Shown: one piece after another, positions 3,545 through 40,817 of the stretch | Layout: each line of letters starts with the position of its first letter | Position numbering within the stretch: the stretch's first letter is position 1 | Origin: a virus | IMG/VR virus record: IMGVR_UViG_3300028666_000012 | Span: 1-40,817 of that record | Strand: one strand, 5' to 3' | DNA: 40,817 nt | Program-made: the position numbers and the translations under genes | The notes under the pieces: generated by a model | What the model saw: the letters and a program-made list of their open reading frames with translations, nothing else | Database searches by the model: none | What the model was told of the DNA's origin: nothing

Positions 3545-5487
3545 ATGCAGATTACCAATACAGGGAATTTAGGCCCTATGATTTTGCAGAGCTTAGCTCC
3601 GGCGATGTTATATGTTCCTACGCCCACAATGAATTACATTACTATCTGTGACAAAGTTTCTATGCCTGCTAATGGCGGAACTACTTGCAGATTTATGCGC
3701 CCACGCGCACTACAACCTCCAACGATTCAACTTGGTAACTCGGGAATTGACCCCCCAGCTCAAGTTCCTCAGAGGGATATCATAGATGCACAAATGGCAT
3801 TCTTCGGTAATTATGCCAGTGCCGAAGATGACTTGTCTCAATATAGACTGGCTGCATAATCAACGAGCAAGTTATCCTGCAAGACCAAGAAGGAGTCTTG
3901 GCATGGGTATCTGAAAGACTCGCTGTTGCAATGAGACAAGCCGAGGATTAAGATTAAGTCCTCGATAAACCTTTTCTGATTGACTTGGAAGTCTAAGTTG
4001 AATCAGATTTGTGTCATAATTAATATGATACAAATATGAGTCAATATGACGACAGGGGGCAAGATTATGAATGATCAAATTATGAAACATTTTGAAATGA
4101 AACTTTTATGGGAAAATAAAAGGATCATGAATGAAAAAGGTGATATAATTGATGTTTATATTCAGCCTGAGAGAACAAGCGAAAAGGATCAATCATCTGG
4201 AAAAACCGGAAAGTTGATATGCGATGTTCCGAACACTCCAACGAAAGGGAGTGAATCTAGCAGAAATGACTAGGTCACGTCGAAAGACGGGGTAACAGGT
4301 TGTTAATTTTACGTGATTACATCGTCTCCGCAGCGTCAGAAATCAACGCAGGGGGTGGTTCTAATGCTGATAATCCCACAAATTTGGGTGTATCAGATTT
4401 TAGTTTAGTTGCTACGACTTTGGATACTAACAATGCCTACAAATTTATGTCAGGTATTGAAGGAATGGATAGATTCGGTAAAGTGTGTGCCGAATTAAAA
4501 CTTTGGGTAATTGACTTGGAGTGCCTTGCTGCATGATAAAAGAAAAATTCGCTCTAATTGGTGGAGATATACATAAACTAATTAGAATAAAGAAATATGA
4601 CCAGTGGGATAAATATTCTTGGAGAGTTCATTATAAAGGAAATTTATATTTTGTTCCTGTAAAAGATGAATGCAAACATGATTTTGAACCTAAAACAACT
4701 GGTTATATTCGAAGAAGAGTTTTTAATAATAAAATGTAGAAGGTTAACAAGGGGCAAGATTATGAAAGAAGAATTGATAGATTATGTAATGGGAAAAGCT
4801 GATCAATATTATTCGGATGATTTCCCTATATATTCTATAGAAGTATGGATAAGAGAATTCTTTGATCAATATCAGCCTGAGAGATCAAACCCTGAAGAAG
4901 CTAGAAAACCATTAAAAGAAGATATAATAAAACTTTTAGATAGAAAGTTTATAAATTCTCCAAAAACTAGCTTATGCGATGATCCGAACTCGGAATATAA
5001 ATAAAATCCGAGAAGTAGGCAGAAATGACCTACTCGCCTCTATGAGGTGGTAACAGAATTGACAGGCCCAGTAAGAAGTGCATACTTCATGTTGTCTAAT
5101 ACAGAATTGCAGACAGATTTCGACGCCTTGACTGGTAGCGGATTCTTGTCTCAATGGAACTATCCTACAAATGCGAGCGCATTGACTTCAGAATACGGTT
5201 CTGTATTTAACATCCGTATTTTGACAAGCTCTGAGGCTCCTGTAGCTCGTGGTGCTAGTGCTAATGGTAACGACGTGTATTACAATACAGTTGTTGGAAA
5301 ACAAGCCGTTACGCATATTAACCAAGATGGTTATAGCATGAATTTGATTTATAGAGACCCATACTACAGTGGTATGTTGGCCCAAAATGCGACTCTTGCA
5401 GTTAAGTTTGCGCAAGCGCAAGCAATCACTCAAGATACTGCTATCCGAAACCTTTTAAGCACTCGCTTAGCGAACTTAAACCCATAG
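3545..5487 (+). CDS. Major capsid protein, N4-gp56-like, split gene (join of four pieces)
   Basis: Coding pieces are 3545-3814, 3853-3948, 4303-4479 and 5062-5487, giving 322 residues when joined. The joined product reads smoothly across junctions (NY/CIINEQV, AED/LILRDYIV, DRFG/TGPVRS). It fits the N4-gp56 family pattern as I recall it, including the conserved R-D-(Y/V)-(I/L) helix after the second junction and Gly-rich loops. Junctions 2 and 3 are removed as group I-like introns; junction 1 is a 38-nt hairpin insert whose removal is unexplained. Read without processing, the gene stops at 3859, after only 104 residues. The start has GAGG about 6 nt upstream. The gene lies between scaffold and decoration genes. 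Exact placement of junction 1 is uncertain by a few bases, but all placements remove 38 nt. Confidence 0.85.
3815..3852 (+). other. 38-nt hairpin insert interrupting the major capsid frame
   Basis: The insert begins with GCCAGT and ends with ACTGGC, a perfect 6-bp inverted repeat, and the flanks ATTAT and ATAAT can extend the stem imperfectly. Its length is not a multiple of three, and reading through it reaches TAA at 3857-3859. Removing 38 nt joins TAT to TGC and restores the capsid frame. It is far too short for a group I or II intron, lacks a guide sequence for its own 5' edge, and has no slippery heptamer. Possible readings are a translational bypass signal, a nuclease/ligase-processed insert, an intron relic, or a lesion in this isolate. 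Confidence 0.6.
3949..4302 (+). ncRNA. Group I-like self-splicing intron in capsid gene (354 nt)
   Basis: The upstream exon ends CGAGGAT. Inside the intron at 3958-3964 lies GTCCTCG, pairing perfectly with it except for the expected U-G wobble at the splice site (P1). The bases before that guide (ATTAA) pair with the start of the downstream exon (TTAAT), giving P10. The intron ends in G at 4302. Splicing restores the capsid frame. It shares boxes with the intron at 4480-5061: GGGGCAAGATTATGAA, CAGCCTGAGAGA, ATGCGATG-T-TCCGAAC, a hairpin with loop CAGAAATGA, and a final GGTAACAG. I could not assign P3-P7 confidently, so the subgroup is open. Confidence 0.82.
4067..4273 (+). CDS. Small intron-encoded ORF (68 aa), function unknown
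   Basis: The ATG follows the conserved intron box GGGGCAAG, which doubles as a plausible ribosome site. The N-terminal half (MNDQIMKHFEMKLLWENKR) looks like a protein. The C-terminal half, from IQPERTSEKDQ onward, is read through the intron's conserved RNA core, so it is probably constrained by RNA structure. It has none of the HNH, GIY-YIG, LAGLIDADG or His-Cys motifs of homing endonucleases. It may be a decayed endonuclease remnant, a small splicing accessory protein, or no gene at all. Confidence 0.4.
   Translation: MNDQIMKHFEMKLLWENKRIMNEKGDIIDVYIQPERTSEKDQSSGKTGKLICDVPNTPTKGSESSRND
4533..4739 (+). CDS. Intron-encoded hypothetical protein (68 aa)
   Basis: This ORF lies entirely within the second capsid intron, before its conserved core, in the part that makes this intron longer than the first. 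The protein (MIKEKFALIGGDIHKLIR start) is basic, with Trp/Tyr-rich strands and one Cys-x-His pair (ECKHDF), ending with Arg-rich GYIRRRVF. The composition could fit an RNA- or DNA-binding protein. No homing endonuclease signature is visible and no strong ribosome site precedes the ATG. I do not recognise it. Confidence 0.45.
   Translation: MIKEKFALIGGDIHKLIRIKKYDQWDKYSWRVHYKGNLYFVPVKDECKHDFEPKTTGYIRRRVFNNKM
4762..5004 (+). CDS. Intron-encoded hypothetical protein (80 aa)
   Basis: The ATG follows GGGGCAAG, exactly as in the ORF of the first intron. The protein is acidic and helical (MKEELIDYVMGKADQYYSDD). Near residue 43 it has YQPERSN, equivalent to IQPERTS in the first intron's ORF because both are read through the same conserved RNA box. 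The remainder, ENDING in SEYK, runs into the 3' RNA core. No nuclease motif is visible. The shared start context in two diverged introns is the best argument that these ORFs are translated. Confidence 0.42.
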   Translation: MKEELIDYVMGKADQYYSDDFPIYSIEVWIREFFDQYQPERSNPEEARKPLKEDIIKLLDRKFINSPKTSLCDDPNSEYK

Positions 5488-24571: not shown

Positions 24572-24772
24572 TCAAAAATAAATATCCCGCTTCTTTGACA
24601 ATTCATCATATTTAGTCATCATAAGACAACAAACTTGATATGTAATACCATCAATTTCTCTTTCACAGATATCAGCATAACCGCTATTAAAATCATCGTG
24701 ACAAGAATCACAGCAATTTAAAGGAATTTTAAATTTAGATGAAAATTCCTCGCAAAAACAAATGTCTATCAA
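24572..24772 (-). CDS. Cysteine-rich small protein (66 aa)
   Basis: Nine-odd percent Cys: ICFCEEF, NCCDSCHDD, CEREI and VCCLMM. The pattern CxC...CCxxCH suggests a metal-binding minidomain, with the rest helical. The start overlaps the upstream PNKP-like gene by 4 nt, so they are translated together. No family known to me. Confidence 0.62.
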   Translation of the reverse strand: MIDICFCEEFSSKFKIPLNCCDSCHDDFNSGYADICEREIDGITYQVCCLMMTKYDELSKKRDIYF

Positions 24773-25281
24773 AACTCACCCCCACTTTGGTTACAGTCAA
24801 AAACGAAAACCCCTCTACTCTTCCACATCTCAATAGACTTTGGGTCGCTTTCGAATACGAATTCGATTTTTTTTCCTTTTGACAATTCTTCATCAAGCCA
24901 TTTCTCTTTCAATTCATCGTCAGGTGTGTTGTCTCCGATGGGACGCATTTTTAATTGATCTCTCCAATTGATATCTCTTGTAAAATTTATCTGTAGCCAA
25001 TCAATAGTCTTTTCTTTTACAGATTCGCATCTCCCAGACCATATTTGAATGGGATGATTTATTCCAAATTTTTCTTTTAATGAATGAAATTGAAATGCAA
25101 CGGGAAATATTATTTTATCTTTATCGCACGCATCGTTAAATGATTTCCAATCAGGTTGCCATTTTCTACCATCGGAATACTCGAATTCCATTATCTGTCC
25201 AGCATGTCTGTATTTATCTAAATCAACAAAATGCCGTCTATGATCGCAGTCTGCTAATGTGTCTAAGTCAAATATGATCAT
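24769..25281 (-). CDS. Polynucleotide kinase 3'-phosphatase-like HAD hydrolase (170 aa)
   Basis: HAD phosphatases remove phosphate using two Asp in the first motif. Here FDLDTLAD gives Asp5 and Asp7 (the usual Gly after DxD is missing). IWSGR (80-84) is the motif II Ser region, Lys125 in DDELKEKW is the motif III Lys, and FESD (143-146) stands for the acidic motif IV. The ending SIEMWKSRGVFVFDCNQSGGEF closely parallels the end of T4 Pnkp (VVEMWRRIGVE...SGDF), as I recall it. The N-terminal kinase domain of T4 Pnkp is absent, so this would be a stand-alone 3'-end-healing phosphatase. It shares an operon with an RNA ligase and a metallophosphoesterase. Confidence 0.75.
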   Translation of the reverse strand: MIIFDLDTLADCDHRRHFVDLDKYRHAGQIMEFEYSDGRKWQPDWKSFNDACDKDKIIFPVAFQFHSLKEKFGINHPIQIWSGRCESVKEKTIDWLQINFTRDINWRDQLKMRPIGDNTPDDELKEKWLDEELSKGKKIEFVFESDPKSIEMWKSRGVFVFDCNQSGGEF

Positions 25282-25427
25282 GATTTCTCTAATAATTTTG
25301 GCAATTCTTTTAATTTAATAGGTATCAATTGACCCTCTTTTGATATGTGAATAGGCCCTTTTTCTGAAAACCATGTTGCTCCGTGCTGTGATTGCTTTGC
25401 TAATTCAATCATTTCGAAGATATTCAT
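25278..25427 (-). CDS. Small hypothetical protein (49 aa)
   Basis: MNIFEMIELAKQSQHGATWF, then PIHISKEGQLIPIKLKELPK, coupled at both ends by ATGA overlaps to its neighbours. Its compact mixture of one helix and two strands looks like a genuine small protein. The gene fills the space between the phosphatase and the next ORF. No family recognised. Confidence 0.62.
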   Translation of the reverse strand: MNIFEMIELAKQSQHGATWFSEKGPIHISKEGQLIPIKLKELPKLLEKS

Positions 25428-25621
25428 AAAACAACCTCTTCATCTATCCAAGATTTACCAACATCACAAAAACAAGCATCTGTTGATTTATCTCTTTTTT
25501 CCTTTATATCTAATGCTTTTTCGTTACTGGAATAACGACCCAAAATTTCGGTTATTAATCCCATGCTATTTCCCCATCCATCAATCGGATTCATTCTTAC
25601 TTTGTGAACGTATATAATCAT
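25424..25621 (-). CDS. Small hypothetical protein (65 aa)
   Basis: A short soluble protein, MIIYVHKVRMNPIDGWGNSM at the start, with one CFC pair near the C-terminus (DACFCDVGKSW). Starts and ends by 4-nt overlaps within the operon. It sits between the metallophosphoesterase and a 49-residue ORF. No function can be assigned. Confidence 0.6.
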   Translation of the reverse strand: MIIYVHKVRMNPIDGWGNSMGLITEILGRYSSNEKALDIKEKRDKSTDACFCDVGKSWIDEEVVL

Positions 25622-26325
25622 AAAGAAATCCTCATAACCTTATTCACTGGCTGATATCTTTCGTTAACATAGCTGCAATTGATAACTTTAGTCATCACAA
25701 GATCGATTTCTTTTCCGCCTTGTTCATGTATATGAGAGCATATTAAATATTTTGGTTTAACTCTAAACATTGTTTCTCTCAATGAAATGCTTCCGCAATG
25801 CTCACCATGTTTATTCATATCTAGAATTCCATAAGGAGGAGTATGAGAAATCAATATGTCTATTCCTTCAGGGATTTTATCATATTCTTTTTTCAACTCT
25901 TCTTCCGTTCCCATGAAAGCATTGCATCTTGGATTAACACCTTCGAATAGTAATGAGTGTGGAGTTCCCCATATCTTTAATGATTTATCAACAGTTGGAT
26001 GAATTCCGCACTCTTCTAATTCAATATCATCTTCTTCGTATTCGAATTCTGTTCCTGAGTTGCAGAGATAGTCACAAGAAGGATCAATAATAACTGTGTT
26101 ATCTTGTGGATCATTTATGTCAAATACACCCATTTCTAAAATATCGTCATGGTTACCTGCGATCAGGATTTTTTTTCGATATCTTTGATTAAATATCCAA
26201 TTATTAAATTCGTCTATTTCATTTATTGTATGCCTAGCAGTCAAATCGCCAGTAACAATCAATAGATCTCCACCTTCAAGTTTTGGATACTGACCATGCA
26301 AACAACCAATGCAATCTATAATCAT
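25618..26325 (-). CDS. Calcineurin-like metallophosphoesterase (235 aa)
   Basis: Metal-binding motifs of the family appear in order: GDLT (26-29), GNHD (57-60), SHTPP (160-164) and SHIHE (197-201). The first motif, normally D-x-H, reads C8-L9-H10 (IGCLHG), so one metal-ligand Asp is replaced by Cys. The layout IVTGDLT...IAGNHD...ISHTPPYGILD resembles the MPPED/YfcE-like branch, which cleaves phosphodiesters including cyclic nucleotides. With an RNA ligase and a PNKP-like phosphatase in the same operon, a 2',3'-cyclic phosphate or other end-processing role is attractive but inferred. The start overlaps the upstream stop by 4 nt. Confidence 0.82.
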   Translation of the reverse strand: MIIDCIGCLHGQYPKLEGGDLLIVTGDLTARHTINEIDEFNNWIFNQRYRKKILIAGNHDDILEMGVFDINDPQDNTVIIDPSCDYLCNSGTEFEYEEDDIELEECGIHPTVDKSLKIWGTPHSLLFEGVNPRCNAFMGTEEELKKEYDKIPEGIDILISHTPPYGILDMNKHGEHCGSISLRETMFRVKPKYLICSHIHEQGGKEIDLVMTKVINCSYVNERYQPVNKVMRISL

Positions 26326-26621
26326 TTATCGACTCCATATTTTTCCAACCTTTCCCATAATTTAGGAAACTTAATCTTAAATCCTAGTAATGCACCAGAG
26401 TGGTTCTCTGCAATCCTAGAGATTAAGTAAACTGTACGCACAATTCGTACGTTTATTTCATTCTCTTCTCCTACAGCATCCTTAACCCAATTGTCTTCGT
26501 CGTCAACGTCATATAACTCATAGAAATCAGTTAAATCTAATATCAATCTTCGGAATTTGTTGAAGTCGAAAAACTTAAATGCTTCTTCAATTTCATGTTC
26601 TAGGAATTCGAATTTAGCCAT
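26322..26621 (-). CDS. Acidic helical hypothetical protein (99 aa)
   Basis: The protein is helical and acidic (FLEHEIEEAFKFFDFNKF, then DLTDFYELYDVDDEDNW) and ends KLWERLEKYGVDK. It lies between the RNA ligase and the metallophosphoesterase with overlaps at both ends, so it may belong to the same functional set. Its second half (VRIVRTVYLISRIAENHSGAL) resembles the helical small proteins common beside phage recombination genes. Not recognised. Confidence 0.6.
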   Translation of the reverse strand: MAKFEFLEHEIEEAFKFFDFNKFRRLILDLTDFYELYDVDDEDNWVKDAVGEENEINVRIVRTVYLISRIAENHSGALLGFKIKFPKLWERLEKYGVDK

Positions 26622-27631
26622 TATTTCTCATAGTTAAGGTTAATCACTTTGAAGCTAATTGGCTTGTGTCCTAAAACGTTATCTTGAGATCTAACAATAA
26701 CTCCTTCCCTTTGTTTTCCATTTGTGTATGTTCCCTCTCCAAGCTTATCAATATTTTCAGAAGAAAACCTGGATTTATGTTCTAGAATAGCAACCATTGG
26801 AAATCGCAATTGGGTGCAAAAATAGATGAATTCATGGAAATTAAGATATCTTTTTTCATTTATATTATATGCAGAAAAAGCGAGACCAATAACGTCTGTA
26901 AATCCCATTGGGTTACCCTGAATCTTAGGACCACATGTCTCCCATTGAATAGCAAATCCATCAGGCAAACGCTCTTCCAATTTATGATTAATAGCCACTT
27001 TCCAATATCCATTCTTCTCATCTCTTTCGAGTTCCCAATTTCTAGAACATAATCCAAATTTACCTTTATATTTATATGCAGTAGTCGAAGAACCATCAGC
27101 CTTTTCAGTTATGTAATATGGTTTACCATCGAGTAACTGGATGTATTCTTGACCAATTGAATTTTGATAATTCGGCTCATCAGTCTTAGGAATGAATCCA
27201 GGGAACTCTCCTTTTGCTTTTCCTTGTAAATTTGCTGGTACTGGCTTATGGTATTTCTTAACTTCTAAATCAGATGTAACGTCTAAACCAATATCCCATA
27301 ACTGTTCTGTAGAGTCATTATAGGTATGTGAATCGCATTTAGTGATTAAAACTTCACTTGGAGCTCCTTTAAAACGGCACATCCTAACTCGCCATTTTGT
27401 CTTCTCCATATAAGGAAGATAAGAATGCTTGTCTTTGTCTAATAGAGAATCAGGTAAGAATACAGTGCAGAAGCTTCCTACAACGAAATCACTTTTACGA
27501 ACTACTCCACGCCACTTTCCACCTTTACCGCATATTACAGTTGCAGAAACGATTAATTCAGCTCCTTGAATGGGTTCTAAAGAAATTATCTTGCCAATAT
27601 ATACTAATCCTTCATCTATTGAATCAGACAT
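26621..27631 (-). CDS. ATP-dependent RNA ligase with N-terminal OB-like domain (336 aa)
   Basis: Nucleotidyltransferase motifs are in order: motif I EKADGSS with Lys177 as the AMP acceptor, motif Ia/near FGLCSRN (192-198), motif III region IQWETCGP (228-235), motif IV REGVIVR (308-314) and motif V SFKVINLNY (326-334, Lys328). The first 120 residues form a separate beta-rich domain (GLVYIGKIISLEPIQGAE), and the two-domain layout with an N-terminal OB-like module is that of the Rnl5/DraRnl type. It seals nicked RNA. Next to end-healing enzymes it likely repairs host-cut tRNA or other RNA. Length fits this family. Coupled start with the upstream small gene. Confidence 0.85.
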   Translation of the reverse strand: MSDSIDEGLVYIGKIISLEPIQGAELIVSATVICGKGGKWRGVVRKSDFVVGSFCTVFLPDSLLDKDKHSYLPYMEKTKWRVRMCRFKGAPSEVLITKCDSHTYNDSTEQLWDIGLDVTSDLEVKKYHKPVPANLQGKAKGEFPGFIPKTDEPNYQNSIGQEYIQLLDGKPYYITEKADGSSTTAYKYKGKFGLCSRNWELERDEKNGYWKVAINHKLEERLPDGFAIQWETCGPKIQGNPMGFTDVIGLAFSAYNINEKRYLNFHEFIYFCTQLRFPMVAILEHKSRFSSENIDKLGEGTYTNGKQREGVIVRSQDNVLGHKPISFKVINLNYEK

Positions 27632-27891: not shown

Positions 27892-28737
27892 TCACTCATT
27901 TTCTATGATTATTTTCCAATATTCTGAACTAGGTTTTCGATATGGTTCCAAGTCCAAATTGGTTATAGCTTCTATCTTCGAATAGTCGATAATACCTTTT
28001 CTTACTACCTTTGACAGTTTTATACCTCCTCCCATCGAAGAATGTGACCCACTCAATGAAATTAACTCTTGTTTTAGGGTTTCCTCCAGCTGTTCGGCGC
28101 GCTTTCTGTCCAGGTATGCGTTCCGATAACTCTCGGCTAAGTTGTTCCATTCGGGCTCTGACCTCTGGTGATAATCCTTCGTAGTCATCATAGGTGGGGT
28201 GTACTTTAATAAGCATTCGTAAAACTCTGTCAGTTTTGGTAACATTTGGTTTATAAATTCATCGTCTCTTGCAACAGGAATCATTACTCCTTTTTTCCCA
28301 TTAAATGCTAAATACCATGCCAGTTGTACGTTAGAAACGTACATCTGATGTTGCATTTGACAAATATAAATTGGGTTTATTTCACCTCTTTGAGCTTGTT
28401 CAAAAGATTTTGGGCCGCATTTTATTTCTAGTATCTCTCTTGCATCTGATGATATTCCATCTAATGAAGCCATCATGAAATCTTTGAACACAACTTTTGG
28501 TTGAAATTCTTTCATAAAATAATCTTCACACCATTTTCTAGCTAAAGGCTCAATCCTTGTTCCTTCACGCATACGTTCTGTTTCTTCATCGGGTGGGTCT
28601 AAGTCCATCTTTTGACGAAATAGCTTATACGGAGTTTTCCAAGGGCTAAGACCTAAAATTACCGCTGAATCTGTTGCCGTTACATGTTGCTTTCTAATTT
28701 CAAGCCAATCGCTTGAACCCTGTTTAAGTTCATTCAT
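27892..28737 (-). CDS. YqaJ-like viral recombinase, 5'-3' exonuclease (281 aa)
   Basis: A lambda exonuclease-fold nuclease. Seen: QGSSDWLEIRKQHVTATD (6-23) with the typical TASD-like turn, G-T-R-I-E-P (59-64, Glu63), SLDG (91-94, Asp93), EIK (104-106) and the QMQHQMYV helix (127-134), the YqaJ catalytic set. It resects dsDNA ends to provide 3' single strands. The partner annealing protein is encoded in the same operon at 29900-30715. Length is normal for the family. The C-terminal 80 residues are a helical tail. Confidence 0.92.
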   Translation of the reverse strand: MNELKQGSSDWLEIRKQHVTATDSAVILGLSPWKTPYKLFRQKMDLDPPDEETERMREGTRIEPLARKWCEDYFMKEFQPKVVFKDFMMASLDGISSDAREILEIKCGPKSFEQAQRGEINPIYICQMQHQMYVSNVQLAWYLAFNGKKGVMIPVARDDEFINQMLPKLTEFYECLLKYTPPMMTTKDYHQRSEPEWNNLAESYRNAYLDRKRAEQLEETLKQELISLSGSHSSMGGGIKLSKVVRKGIIDYSKIEAITNLDLEPYRKPSSEYWKIIIENE

Positions 28738-29899: not shown

Positions 29900-30715
29900 C
29901 TATCCTTGCGATTCTTGTTTTTTCATCTTCAATTCTCTATATGCGGAAGCCTTATTGATAACCTTGGTTAATTCTGCATTAGGGATGCCATCGATATTCT
30001 TAATCTTGTAATGCTCTAGGATTATATTTTCGTAATCCATTCCGCACTCTTCCAAAATATCACCAAGCAATATGATTAAATCTTCTCTATTTTGTGATGA
30101 ATCTGTGTCAGGTTTATTTTGTTTCGGTGCTGTGTCAACTTTGATGTTAGGTTGAATAATCTCACATTTAGTTACAGGCAATTTATACTCATCAACCTTT
30201 TCAATCTCTTTTAATTCATCTTCAACATAACCGGCTCCCATACTTAAATCAGGAAAGAGCTGACGGAATAACATAGACATGCATCGATTATAAAGCATAA
30301 TCGCAGGGTATTTCTTCCAAGTAGGACCATTCCAAAGACCTGCCGCCTCTGCATCTGTTCTACTAAAAGAACAAGTCCAAGTGTCTCCGCTATCTGCGCG
30401 TTTACCATGCAATATCACACATTCATTATTAGATTTAGGGTCCTTTGTAATGGAATGACCACGTTTTCTTACCAATGCTGCCATCATTTCTGTAGACATG
30501 CCCACCTTTCCATTAATGCAATGGAAACCTCCATTAAGTGCTTCAAATGGATGAATTCCTAATGCCTTTGATCTTGATATAATGGCATGTATTCCAGCTT
30601 CTCCAATACTTGCATAATGTTTAGTAGATAGTAGTTTCTTGCATGTATCTTGAATTTTATCTAGTTCTGCTAATTGTTTTGCGAAGTCATCTTGTATTAC
30701 TAATTCGTTAGCCAT
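29900..30715 (-). CDS. RecT-like single-strand annealing protein (271 aa)
   Basis: The central region (about 45-175) carries family features: SRSKALGIHPFEALNGGFHC, INGKVGMSTEMMAALVRKRG, a F-SRTDAEAAGLW segment and WKKYPAIMLYNRCMSML. This matches the RecT/Bet-type recombinases used with YqaJ exonucleases. It anneals the 3' strands produced by the exonuclease in recombination-dependent replication. After about residue 185 the sequence turns polar and a small helical C-terminal domain follows. ATG overlaps the previous stop by 8 nt. Ends in KKQESQG, like the Lar-like protein's end (KQESQG), perhaps a shared DNA segment. Confidence 0.85.
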   Translation of the reverse strand: MANELVIQDDFAKQLAELDKIQDTCKKLLSTKHYASIGEAGIHAIISRSKALGIHPFEALNGGFHCINGKVGMSTEMMAALVRKRGHSITKDPKSNNECVILHGKRADSGDTWTCSFSRTDAEAAGLWNGPTWKKYPAIMLYNRCMSMLFRQLFPDLSMGAGYVEDELKEIEKVDEYKLPVTKCEIIQPNIKVDTAPKQNKPDTDSSQNREDLIILLGDILEECGMDYENIILEHYKIKNIDGIPNAELTKVINKASAYRELKMKKQESQG

Positions 30716-38624: not shown

Positions 38625-40766
38625 TTGAGCTTCTACGCCCCACCTTGGAATAATAATCTAGAGCCTAATCAAGGTAATGTTAGACAGTGGCTTGATAACT
38701 TATACAGCAAGTTTCAGCCTATTGAACAATCTCGTTGGAATCAATCTAACATTGATACTCTATTCTACGCTGGTTCTCAAGAGTTCATTAACCGTAACTT
38801 CAGTTTCACGGGAAATAACACCGCAAGCAATTATCAGTTTAATTTGATAGCCCAGCCAATTAACATGATAACCGGATTTGAGAGACAAAAAAGAAAGAAC
38901 TTTTCATATGTACCCTGCGAAGGTTCTGACCCTCAAACTACAGATCAATATACAAAGTTAATTACTCATTGCGCTAATATGGGCGATATTCATGAAATTA
39001 AGTCTAAAGCAAAAGAGCTTGCAGCTATTTCAGGAATGGTATTACTTCAACCATATTTAGACTACTCAGGAGATGATCAGGCACAGGGTGATCTTAAGGT
39101 TAAGGTGTGGGAATACAACTCGTTTCTAATGGACCCATATTGGAGAACTGACATTAACAATGCTCAGTACATATGGTGTCAGGAATATATTAGCAAGAAA
39201 GAGGCTGAGGATAGATTCCCCGATAAGTTAGAATCTATTGGCCCTATGTCAGGTACACCACAAAGATATGGTAATTTCTATTTCCTTCCAGAGAATTACA
39301 ATATGAGCCGTAATGACCTCATGGTGTTGTCTTACGTATGGTACAAATGGAAGAAAAAGAAGCAGCGTCTTTACAGTAAATCTAGGAATCAATTCTTCGA
39401 CTTTGGTAAAGAGGCTAATATAGAAGAGATTATTTATAATATTCCTGATATGGAAATTGTAACTGTAGAGGTTCCATGCTGGAAATTAGCCACAGTTCTT
39501 AACGATCAATTGATGTTCCAAGGAGATAATCCACTTGGATTTGATGGATGTCCATTTATCCCTTACTTCTGGAACTACGACCCTCATATTCCTCAGTTTG
39601 ATTTACGCGTGAGGTCTCTAGTACGCCCAATGAGATCTGCTCAATTCTTATTTAACCATAAGATAATCAACAATGCAGATATCACAGAAGCGACTATCAA
39701 TGCAGGTTGGAAGAGAAAGGTTGGAGCTGTAGCCAATGAAGATAATCTTAAGAAGTCTGGCCAAGGATATGATGTTATAATCAATGAAGGTTATGAGCTT
39801 ACAGACTGCGAAAAGATTATTCCAAGTGGTGTTCCTGAATCTGATTTAGCGTTAGCTGATCAATTCATGAACCTAATCTATTCTACTTCTGGGATAAACT
39901 TAGAAAACTGGTCTGCTCAACAAGAGAAAGGGGTTTCAAGTTTAACTGTTCTATTGAAGCAAGCCGCTAATCTAATGGTGTTCCAGAAGTATTTTGATCA
40001 GTGGGACTATTCTGATAAAATGCTAGGTTCAATATTACTTCAGATAGTCCTTAACAATTGGAACGCTGAGAAAGTTAAACTAATGATTGGGGAAGAGCCT
40101 TCACCATTCTTCTATAGCAAGATATTCTCTAAGTTTCAGGTATTGGTTGAAGAGTCTGATTTAACGCCTACTCAACAGAACTTGCAAGCTCAGCAAATGA
40201 TGGATATTAACGCAACATTCGGTAGAGAAGTATTCCCTCCTTCAATGATAATTCCTAAACTGAATATTACCGGTAAAGGCGAGATCATACCATACCTTGA
40301 AGAGCAAGAACATAAAGCGGCAGCAGTTGAATCAGAAGCGCAGAACATCCAGCATACTGTCGAAGAGATGAAAATCAAACAACTTATGGCTCAGATACAT
40401 AACCAATTGTCTCAAGCTCGTGAACGCGATTCTAGATCTGAATCTAACGTCGGTCTATTCGAAGAGCGTATGTCAATGATCAGTAAAAACCATAGCCTAG
40501 CAACTAAAGAGAAAGTTGAGGCATTAGGTAAATTGCTTGAGACTATACAGAAATTCGGTGAATTAGAGACATTTCTACAGGCTAATAATCTTGATGCTGT
40601 TAAATACGACGAAGAAGAGCAAGAAAAGATAACCCGTCAACAAGTAGAAAGAAACGAAGCATCTAAGAGATTTATAGAGCAATTGATGGGAAGTCAACCA
40701 AGCAATCAGAATCAACAACAGAATCAGCAACAAAACTCTTCTCAGAATATGATGGCGATGTTATAA
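38625..40766 (+). CDS. Portal protein, P22-like (713 aa), TTG start
   Basis: The portal is the dodecameric DNA entry ring. The protein begins with TTG at 38625, preceded by AGAGAGG at 6-7 nt; no ATG gives a complete N-terminus. The length (713) is close to P22 gp1 (725). Features: QFNLIAQPINMITGFERQKR (70-90), NSFLMDPYWR (wing/clip), long stem helices around 390-470 (FDLRVRSLVRPMRSAQFLFN; SGINLENWSAQQEKGVSSLT), then a coiled-coil barrel-like C-terminus with Gln/Asn-rich tail (NQNQQQNQQQNSSQN). The gene crosses the join of the circular genome. Confidence 0.88.
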   Translation: MSFYAPPWNNNLEPNQGNVRQWLDNLYSKFQPIEQSRWNQSNIDTLFYAGSQEFINRNFSFTGNNTASNYQFNLIAQPINMITGFERQKRKNFSYVPCEGSDPQTTDQYTKLITHCANMGDIHEIKSKAKELAAISGMVLLQPYLDYSGDDQAQGDLKVKVWEYNSFLMDPYWRTDINNAQYIWCQEYISKKEAEDRFPDKLESIGPMSGTPQRYGNFYFLPENYNMSRNDLMVLSYVWYKWKKKKQRLYSKSRNQFFDFGKEANIEEIIYNIPDMEIVTVEVPCWKLATVLNDQLMFQGDNPLGFDGCPFIPYFWNYDPHIPQFDLRVRSLVRPMRSAQFLFNHKIINNADITEATINAGWKRKVGAVANEDNLKKSGQGYDVIINEGYELTDCEKIIPSGVPESDLALADQFMNLIYSTSGINLENWSAQQEKGVSSLTVLLKQAANLMVFQKYFDQWDYSDKMLGSILLQIVLNNWNAEKVKLMIGEEPSPFFYSKIFSKFQVLVEESDLTPTQQNLQAQQMMDINATFGREVFPPSMIIPKLNITGKGEIIPYLEEQEHKAAAVESEAQNIQHTVEEMKIKQLMAQIHNQLSQARERDSRSESNVGLFEERMSMISKNHSLATKEKVEALGKLLETIQKFGELETFLQANNLDAVKYDEEEQEKITRQQVERNEASKRFIEQLMGSQPSNQNQQQNQQQNSSQNMMAML

Positions 40767-40817
40767 GGTTATAATTAAACGAGGCTAATAATGCCTCTAA
40801 AAAAATGGGGTGTATTA
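40691..40817. repeat. Direct terminal repeat, right copy
   Basis: Identical to bases 1-127. It contains the portal gene's 3' end (stop 40764-40766) and the first bases leading to the gene at 127. Together with the left copy it allows the contig to be closed into a 40,690-bp circle. Confidence 0.95.

Follow-up and report, generated by a model that had tools for sequence, protein, structure and literature searches.

The virus record IMGVR_UViG_3300028666_000012 of IMG/VR (40,817 bp), analysed as a whole and referred to below as the window, carries on its minus strand an operon encoding an RNA ligase, a metallophosphoesterase (MPE) and a protein of the HAD group. An initial annotation had proposed these three enzymes as a healing-and-sealing set for broken RNA, possibly acting on the capsid transcript as well. 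The cassette is described here as an RNA ligase associated with a phosphodiesterase and not as a complete healing-and-sealing set. In the interpretation that is preferred, and to which a probability of about 0.45 is given, this pair would serve to seal breaks in tRNA, the HAD protein would be a passenger and no role would be played in the processing of the capsid mRNA. The capsid gene itself is interrupted by an insert that appears to belong to a group of very small introns, and this second result is the more surprising of the two.

The ligase (336 aa, 26621-27631), the MPE (235 aa, 25618-26325) and the HAD protein (170 aa, 24769-25281) are members of a chain of seven minus-strand open reading frames (ORFs) connected by overlaps of 1-4 nt, in the order ligase, g99, MPE, g65, a 49-aa ORF, HAD and g66. 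The placement of the three genes in one operon, with the phosphoesterase between the other two, was therefore correct in the initial annotation and the chain is tighter than was noted.

The ATP-dependent ligase matches Pfam RNA_ligase (1.4e-20), phrog_968 'RNA ligase' (2.4e-42), NCBIfam TIGR02306 (5.6e-25) and, over residues 18-327, the Naegleria gruberi RNA ligase structure 5cot (4e-30). On these similarities, it is assigned to the DRB0094/Naegleria (Rnl5-like) nick-sealing type with an N-terminal OB-type domain, as a phage subgroup of a known kind. Lys177 within EKADGSS and the SRN, ETCGP, REGV and SFKV elements align to 5cot as motifs I, Ia, III, IV and V, which bears out the annotated RNA-type ligase with its full complement of nucleotidyltransferase motifs. 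Motif I, SRN, REG and SFK are invariant among the relatives, down to 47% identity, and the enzyme is apparently catalytically intact. The PHA02142 OB-fold domain is detected at the N-terminus just below the cut-off of 27 bits (25.8 bits, 1.5e-5) and scores above it, with 52 bits, in the ligase of the relative L005. An alignment-based search retrieved 206 relatives from IMG/VR; two genomes, G014 (L018) and G043 (L053), each encode two PF09414 ligases of ~330 aa and ~247 aa.

The MPE matches Metallophos of Pfam (1.9e-11) and its closest structure, by sequence (9e-20) as well as by fold, is MPPED2. The structural model aligns to MPPED2 with a Z score of 28.2 and 31% identity, and to the debranching enzyme Dbr1 with a Z score of 15.3 and 25% identity. 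The signature of class III phosphodiesterases, D-(X)n-GD-(X)n-GNH[E/D]-(X)n-H-(X)n-GHXH (PMC4222275), is incomplete in this protein. Motif I reads GCLHG instead of the SDLHG found in most relatives, Cys8 thereby standing for a metal-binding Asp, a loss overlooked in the initial annotation. The protein also has Thr25, and the terminal GHXH reads SHIH; the remaining motifs, among them GNHD, are kept. In Dbr1, the same motif-I Asp is replaced by an invariant and essential Cys14 (PMC4176325). Comparison of 97 distinct homologues indicated that residues 8, 25 and 197 switch jointly between D-A/G-G and C-T-S: Cys8, Thr25 and Ser197 occur together in 8/8 Cys-type proteins (window, L006, L008, L009, L012, L330, L341 and L382), and Asp8, a residue other than Thr25 and Gly197 in 89/89 others. 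Since this coupling is strict, the Cys type is interpreted as a coherent subtype and not as a product of decay. About five changes are counted on a rough tree, and the form resembling Dbr1 seems to have had more than one origin. No Cys-type match was obtained in a scan of genome contigs.

The distribution of the genes across genomes identifies the ligase and the MPE as the recurrent unit and the HAD protein as an occasional neighbour. The MPE is present in 18 of 23 near-full-length genomes that carry this ligase (in one of them as a fragment) and in 13 of 50 related genomes devoid of this ligase type, an association for which the Fisher test returned p=3.7e-5, on related genomes uncorrected for kinship whose independence is therefore overstated. 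In three relatives (L048, L052 and L015), the ligase and MPE genes overlap by 4 nt, like those of the window. The HAD protein was found in none of the 50 genomes without this ligase type and in 3/45 records of the first genome set. None of 11 HAD-bearing records encodes the ligase, the two occurring together only in the window, G014, G030 and G042, so that ligase and HAD are not associated across genomes. The claim of a three-enzyme set thus stands as regards the presence of all folds in one operon and the recurrence of the ligase-MPE pair, and is not supported as regards the HAD protein, which mostly occurs without the ligase. Searching the viral contigs with the single HAD sequence of the window gave no match, and an alignment-based query gave 16 loci; no HAD match was found in plasmids. 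Apparent matches in L006 and L007 were rejected as false, being due to a DUF551 segment. In L035 (6604-7401), the HAD protein is located behind a fused DUF551 domain.

The HAD protein belongs to the PNKP group according to its profiles (HAD_PNKP, PF25109, 1.2e-11; phrog_415/505 'polynucleotide kinase') and to its fold, the 3' phosphatase of T4 Pnkp (5uj0) being the first Foldseek match of a model with a predicted local distance difference test (pLDDT) score of 86. This part of the initial annotation is upheld, and the working 3' phosphatase that it implied is not, two active-site elements whose loss had been overlooked being gone. Motif I reads DLD-TL, the Gly of DxDGT being deleted in the window protein only and present in all compared relatives. 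In motif IV (FESD), E144-S145-D146 correspond to D277-D278-R of T4, which sets Ser145 at the position of D278, a residue known from mutational work to be essential in T4 Pnkp. The nucleophile D5, the acid D7, R84 and D121 are retained. Relatives have lost the nucleophile itself, replaced by Glu in L294, Val in L303 and Asn in L304, and this stand-alone PNKP-type family is often catalytically degenerate in these phages. In view of the two losses in the window protein and of the repeated losses of catalytic residues among its relatives, a working 3' phosphatase is unlikely.

Under the preferred interpretation, the ligase would re-join RNA breaks bearing 3'-OH and 5'-phosphate ends, which need no healing. 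The likely substrate would be host tRNA cut by a two-metal nuclease of a defence or toxin system, such as AriB of PARIS or a PIN-type VapC. VapC and other PIN toxins should leave 5'-phosphate/3'-OH ends. The same ends are left by AriB (PMC12409363), and such cuts would account for the lack of an encoded kinase; the host 5' kinase considered necessary in the initial annotation is consequently not strictly required. The absence of a kinase domain that it reported was confirmed for AAA_33, with no match in the window and none above the cut-off in the 23 ligase carriers, other kinase folds not being searched. The MPE would hydrolyse an RNA linkage of no use to the ligase: a 2',3'-cyclic phosphate, as expected from the MPPED class, or a 2'-5' bond, the linkage cleaved by Dbr1. 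MPPED enzymes favour 2',3'-cAMP (PMC10547211) and Rv0805 likewise favours 2',3'-cyclic nucleotides (PMC4222275). The HAD protein is probably inactive or repurposed and would be carried along in the operon.

Several observations weigh against this interpretation. The ligase misses the equivalog cut-off of TIGR02306 (87.9 versus 151.15 bits) and may seal nicks in DNA. No phage tRNA gene was found in the window. The association between ligase and MPE is affected by the kinship of the genomes mentioned above. The usual companion of the ligase is the Asp-type MPE, and the pairing of ligase and Cys-type MPE in the window may be incidental because seven of the eight Cys-type proteins have no ligase in the same locus. 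Finally, Asp146, located beside the lost position, is a possible motif-IV acid that would leave the HAD protein some residual activity.

The alternative that survives best, although it is regarded as somewhat unlikely, is that of two independent counter-defence genes: the ligase would mend tRNA, and the Cys-type MPE would destroy a 2'-5'-linked or cyclic nucleotide alarm or act on branched RNA. The seven related phages with a Cys-type MPE and no ligase in the locus, the Dbr1-type residue set and the position of an early operon beside recombination genes speak for it. The co-occurrence of the two genes across genomes and their translational coupling in the window, L048, L052 and L015 speak against it. 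An HAD protein that remains an active phosphatase of altered design, with Asp146 replacing the lost Asp and another substrate, is unlikely. In its favour are the x-S-D pattern of motif IV, which recurs in L296 and L305, the retained D5, D7, R84 and D121 and the confidence of the model; the deletion of the motif-I Gly is nevertheless unique to the window, and other members of the clade lose even the nucleophile. More doubtful still is the complete pathway, in which the MPE would open a 2',3'-cyclic phosphate, the HAD protein would remove the 3' phosphate, a host kinase would act on the 5' end and the ligase would seal tRNA cut by an anticodon nuclease. Three suitable folds do share one overlapping operon and G042 (L052/L057/L301/L302) combines MPE, ligase and an intact HAD protein within 5 kb, but the degenerate HAD active site of the window, the rarity of HAD beside the ligase and the negative AAA_33 searches argue against it. 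The last proposal, removal of the 38-nt capsid insert by cutting, healing and sealing, could invoke the presence of both elements in one genome and the frame disruption caused by the insert, and is rejected as extremely improbable, since 20 of the 21 relatives with comparable inserts have no RNA_ligase gene (ten of these 20 being 37-43 kb in size, and the exception encoding a different ligase of 227 aa) and the insert bears the guide pairing, 5'-exon U and terminal G that are a signature of group I chemistry.

The ligase is thus not what removes the insert, and the action of the repair set on the capsid transcript suggested in the initial annotation is not supported. The 38-nt insert itself is confirmed by uninterrupted relatives (L105/L104). 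It lies at 3809-3846 in the major capsid gene (phrog_1357; plus strand, 3545-5487), whose four exons are located at 3545-3808, 3847-3948, 4303-4479 and 5062-5487. The insert breaks the reading frame. It contains an internal guide sequence (IGS), GCCAGU|GCCGAA, forming a P10 of 6 bp with ACUGGC of the 3' exon and a P1 of 8 bp, including a U.G pair, with UUCUUCGGU of the 5' exon. The same plus-strand gene is interrupted by two group I-like introns identified from relatives and with the covariance model: one of 354 nt (3949-4302, core 4118-4302) after codon 122 and one of 582 nt (4480-5061, core 4938-5060) after codon 181. Small ORFs are present inside both of them (4046-4273, 4521-4739 and 4666-5004), in which no recognised homing-endonuclease domain was seen by eye.

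Comparison of related phages yielded 24 distinct inserts of 30-93 nt in 22 capsid loci, window included, at capsid codons 88, 92, 104 or 114 (L215, L219, L224, L225, L227, L230, L232, L233, L236, L238, L240, L242, L244, L254, L259, L262, L263, L270, L273, L274, L282 and L283 in addition to the window). A full-size insert follows each of them 8-57 codons downstream. In all 24, the 5' exon ends in U, the insert ends in G and a single guide pairs with both exons: over 7-8 bp with the 5' exon, including a U.G pair at the site, and, immediately before this stretch, over 4-7 bp with the 3' exon. P1 and P10 together average 12.6 bp in the 24 inserts versus 2.4 (standard deviation 0.55) after shuffling, and the pairings covary (GCCAGU/ACUGGC, CCUGU/ACAGG, CCGGU/ACCGG and ACAC/GUGU). 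Ribosomal bypassing of the 38-nt insert was considered as well; it is made less likely by the exact junction FFG|TGCIINEQ with respect to relatives and by the covariation of P1/P10.

The larger introns are compact and group I-like (~200 nt when free of ORFs), occupy many capsid sites (window, L205-L212 and L215-L293), end in GTAACAG..G and display strong covariation. The covariance model built from them, R1, has 116 cells with double changes versus 38 in shuffles. It located a core in each of the two full introns of the window and, for the 20 relatives that were searched, in the intron behind the mini-insert; no core was found in any mini-insert of the window or of these relatives, nor in five uninterrupted capsid genes. 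Rfam gave no intron match in the window and its relatives even at E<=1 to 5. As RF00028 does detect the intron of T4 nrdD (1.7e-26), the compact capsid introns lie outside this family. Inserts of 946-987 nt occur at capsid codon 104 in five further loci (L250, L251, L257, L281 and L284). Their guide is located 23-24 nt before the 3' end, and the 3' terminus typical of core-bearing introns is missing from them. The covariance model finds no core in that of L251, and these inserts look like mini-introns with ~900 nt accommodated in the P1 loop.

Judging from these alignments, the 38-nt insert would be a mini group I intron reduced to its guide. Comparison establishes the guides, the boundaries, the missing cores and a larger intron that always follows downstream; from these, we infer that the inserts are spliced and that they depend on the neighbour for it. 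The existence of a new class of core-less introns of 30-93 nt (or ~950 nt and ORF-bearing), for which a full intron nearby, mostly the next one downstream, would provide the splicing core, is considered fairly probable. Literature searches returned capsid introns and no core-less mini-introns.

The remainder of the genome is consistent with a tailed phage. Terminase, portal and capsid genes are present, and positions 1-127 and 40691-40817 are identical. This exact terminal repeat of 127 nt implies that the 40.8-kb genome is probably complete. No DNA-level match to named phages was found. Among the small minus-strand ORFs of the operon, g99 (99 aa, 26322-26621), without assigned function, has matches in 11 loci and adjoins the ligase in several relatives. 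The g65 ORF (65 aa, 25424-25621) overlaps both of its neighbours. Neither g99 nor g65 has a match in Pfam, PHROG or NCBIfam. The 49-aa ORF (25278-25427) shares 4-nt overlaps with g65 and with the HAD gene. The g66 ORF (66 aa, 24572-24772), with a TTG start, overlaps the HAD stop and ends the chain. Upstream of the operon, on the same strand, a YqaJ/lambda-exonuclease-type recombinase (27892-28737), found by profile searches, and a RecT-like single-strand annealing protein (minus strand, 29900-30715), found with a PHROGs profile, belong to one block. These genes suggest a block of early DNA metabolism, and the operon would likewise be early.

The cassette therefore presents a phage RNA ligase with neither its own kinase nor a credible phosphatase, linked to a family of phosphodiesterases in which a Dbr1-type Cys active site was apparently acquired several times. 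The question of the substrate, 2'-5' bonds versus 2',3'-cyclic ends, becomes directly testable with it. It also calls for caution, as three neighbouring folds need not form a repair pathway. If the mini-introns are spliced by the core of a neighbour, nature provides a ribozyme that serves a second intron devoid of a core, and this would bear on intron degeneration, on gene calling in phage metagenomes and on the dependence of parasitic introns on a shared splicing machine.

The systems of this phage can be compared to several known ones. The phage capsid group I introns of LittleE (PMC3706429) and of crAss-like major capsid genes (PMC7886860) share with those described here an interrupted capsid gene, the 5'-exon U, the terminal G and small inner ORFs; the inserts of 30-93 nt differ in consisting of a guide without a core, and the core-bearing ones in being missed by RF00028. 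The repair of tRNA by T4 Pnkp-Rnl1 against PrrC (PMC3400036) likewise associates a phage RNA ligase with a partner of PNKP fold, whereas in the window no kinase was found, the phosphatase is degenerate, the ligase belongs to another family and a phosphodiesterase is added. The HAD protein has in common with the 3' phosphatase domain of T4 Pnkp (5uj0, 1ltq) its fold and profile, the nucleophile and acid Asp, SGR, the DD of TPDDELK and a C-terminal MW...F, and differs by the missing DxDGT Gly, the change of D277/D278 to Glu/Ser and the absence of a kinase domain. The ligase resembles the DRB0094 family and its Naegleria gruberi member (TIGR02306; PDB 5cot, 6vt-) over residues 18-327, in all nucleotidyltransferase motifs and in the OB-type domain, and departs from it by a score under the NCBIfam equivalog cut-off and by its own phage N-terminal signature, CGKGGKW. 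With the class III phosphodiesterases MPPED1 and MPPED2, the MPE shares the fold, the GD, GNHD and H motifs and the length of the core domain, the replacement of the motif-I Asp by Cys and of GHxH by SHIH setting it apart. Dbr1 has in common with the MPE this Cys and, by motif order, the metal and catalytic set (C8 H10 D27 N58 H59 H161 H198 H200). The MPE is overall closer to MPPED2 and, because the lariat recognition loop and the C-terminal domain of Dbr1 are absent from its 235 aa, it is not considered to be a Dbr1; by analogy, its active site may work like that of Dbr1.

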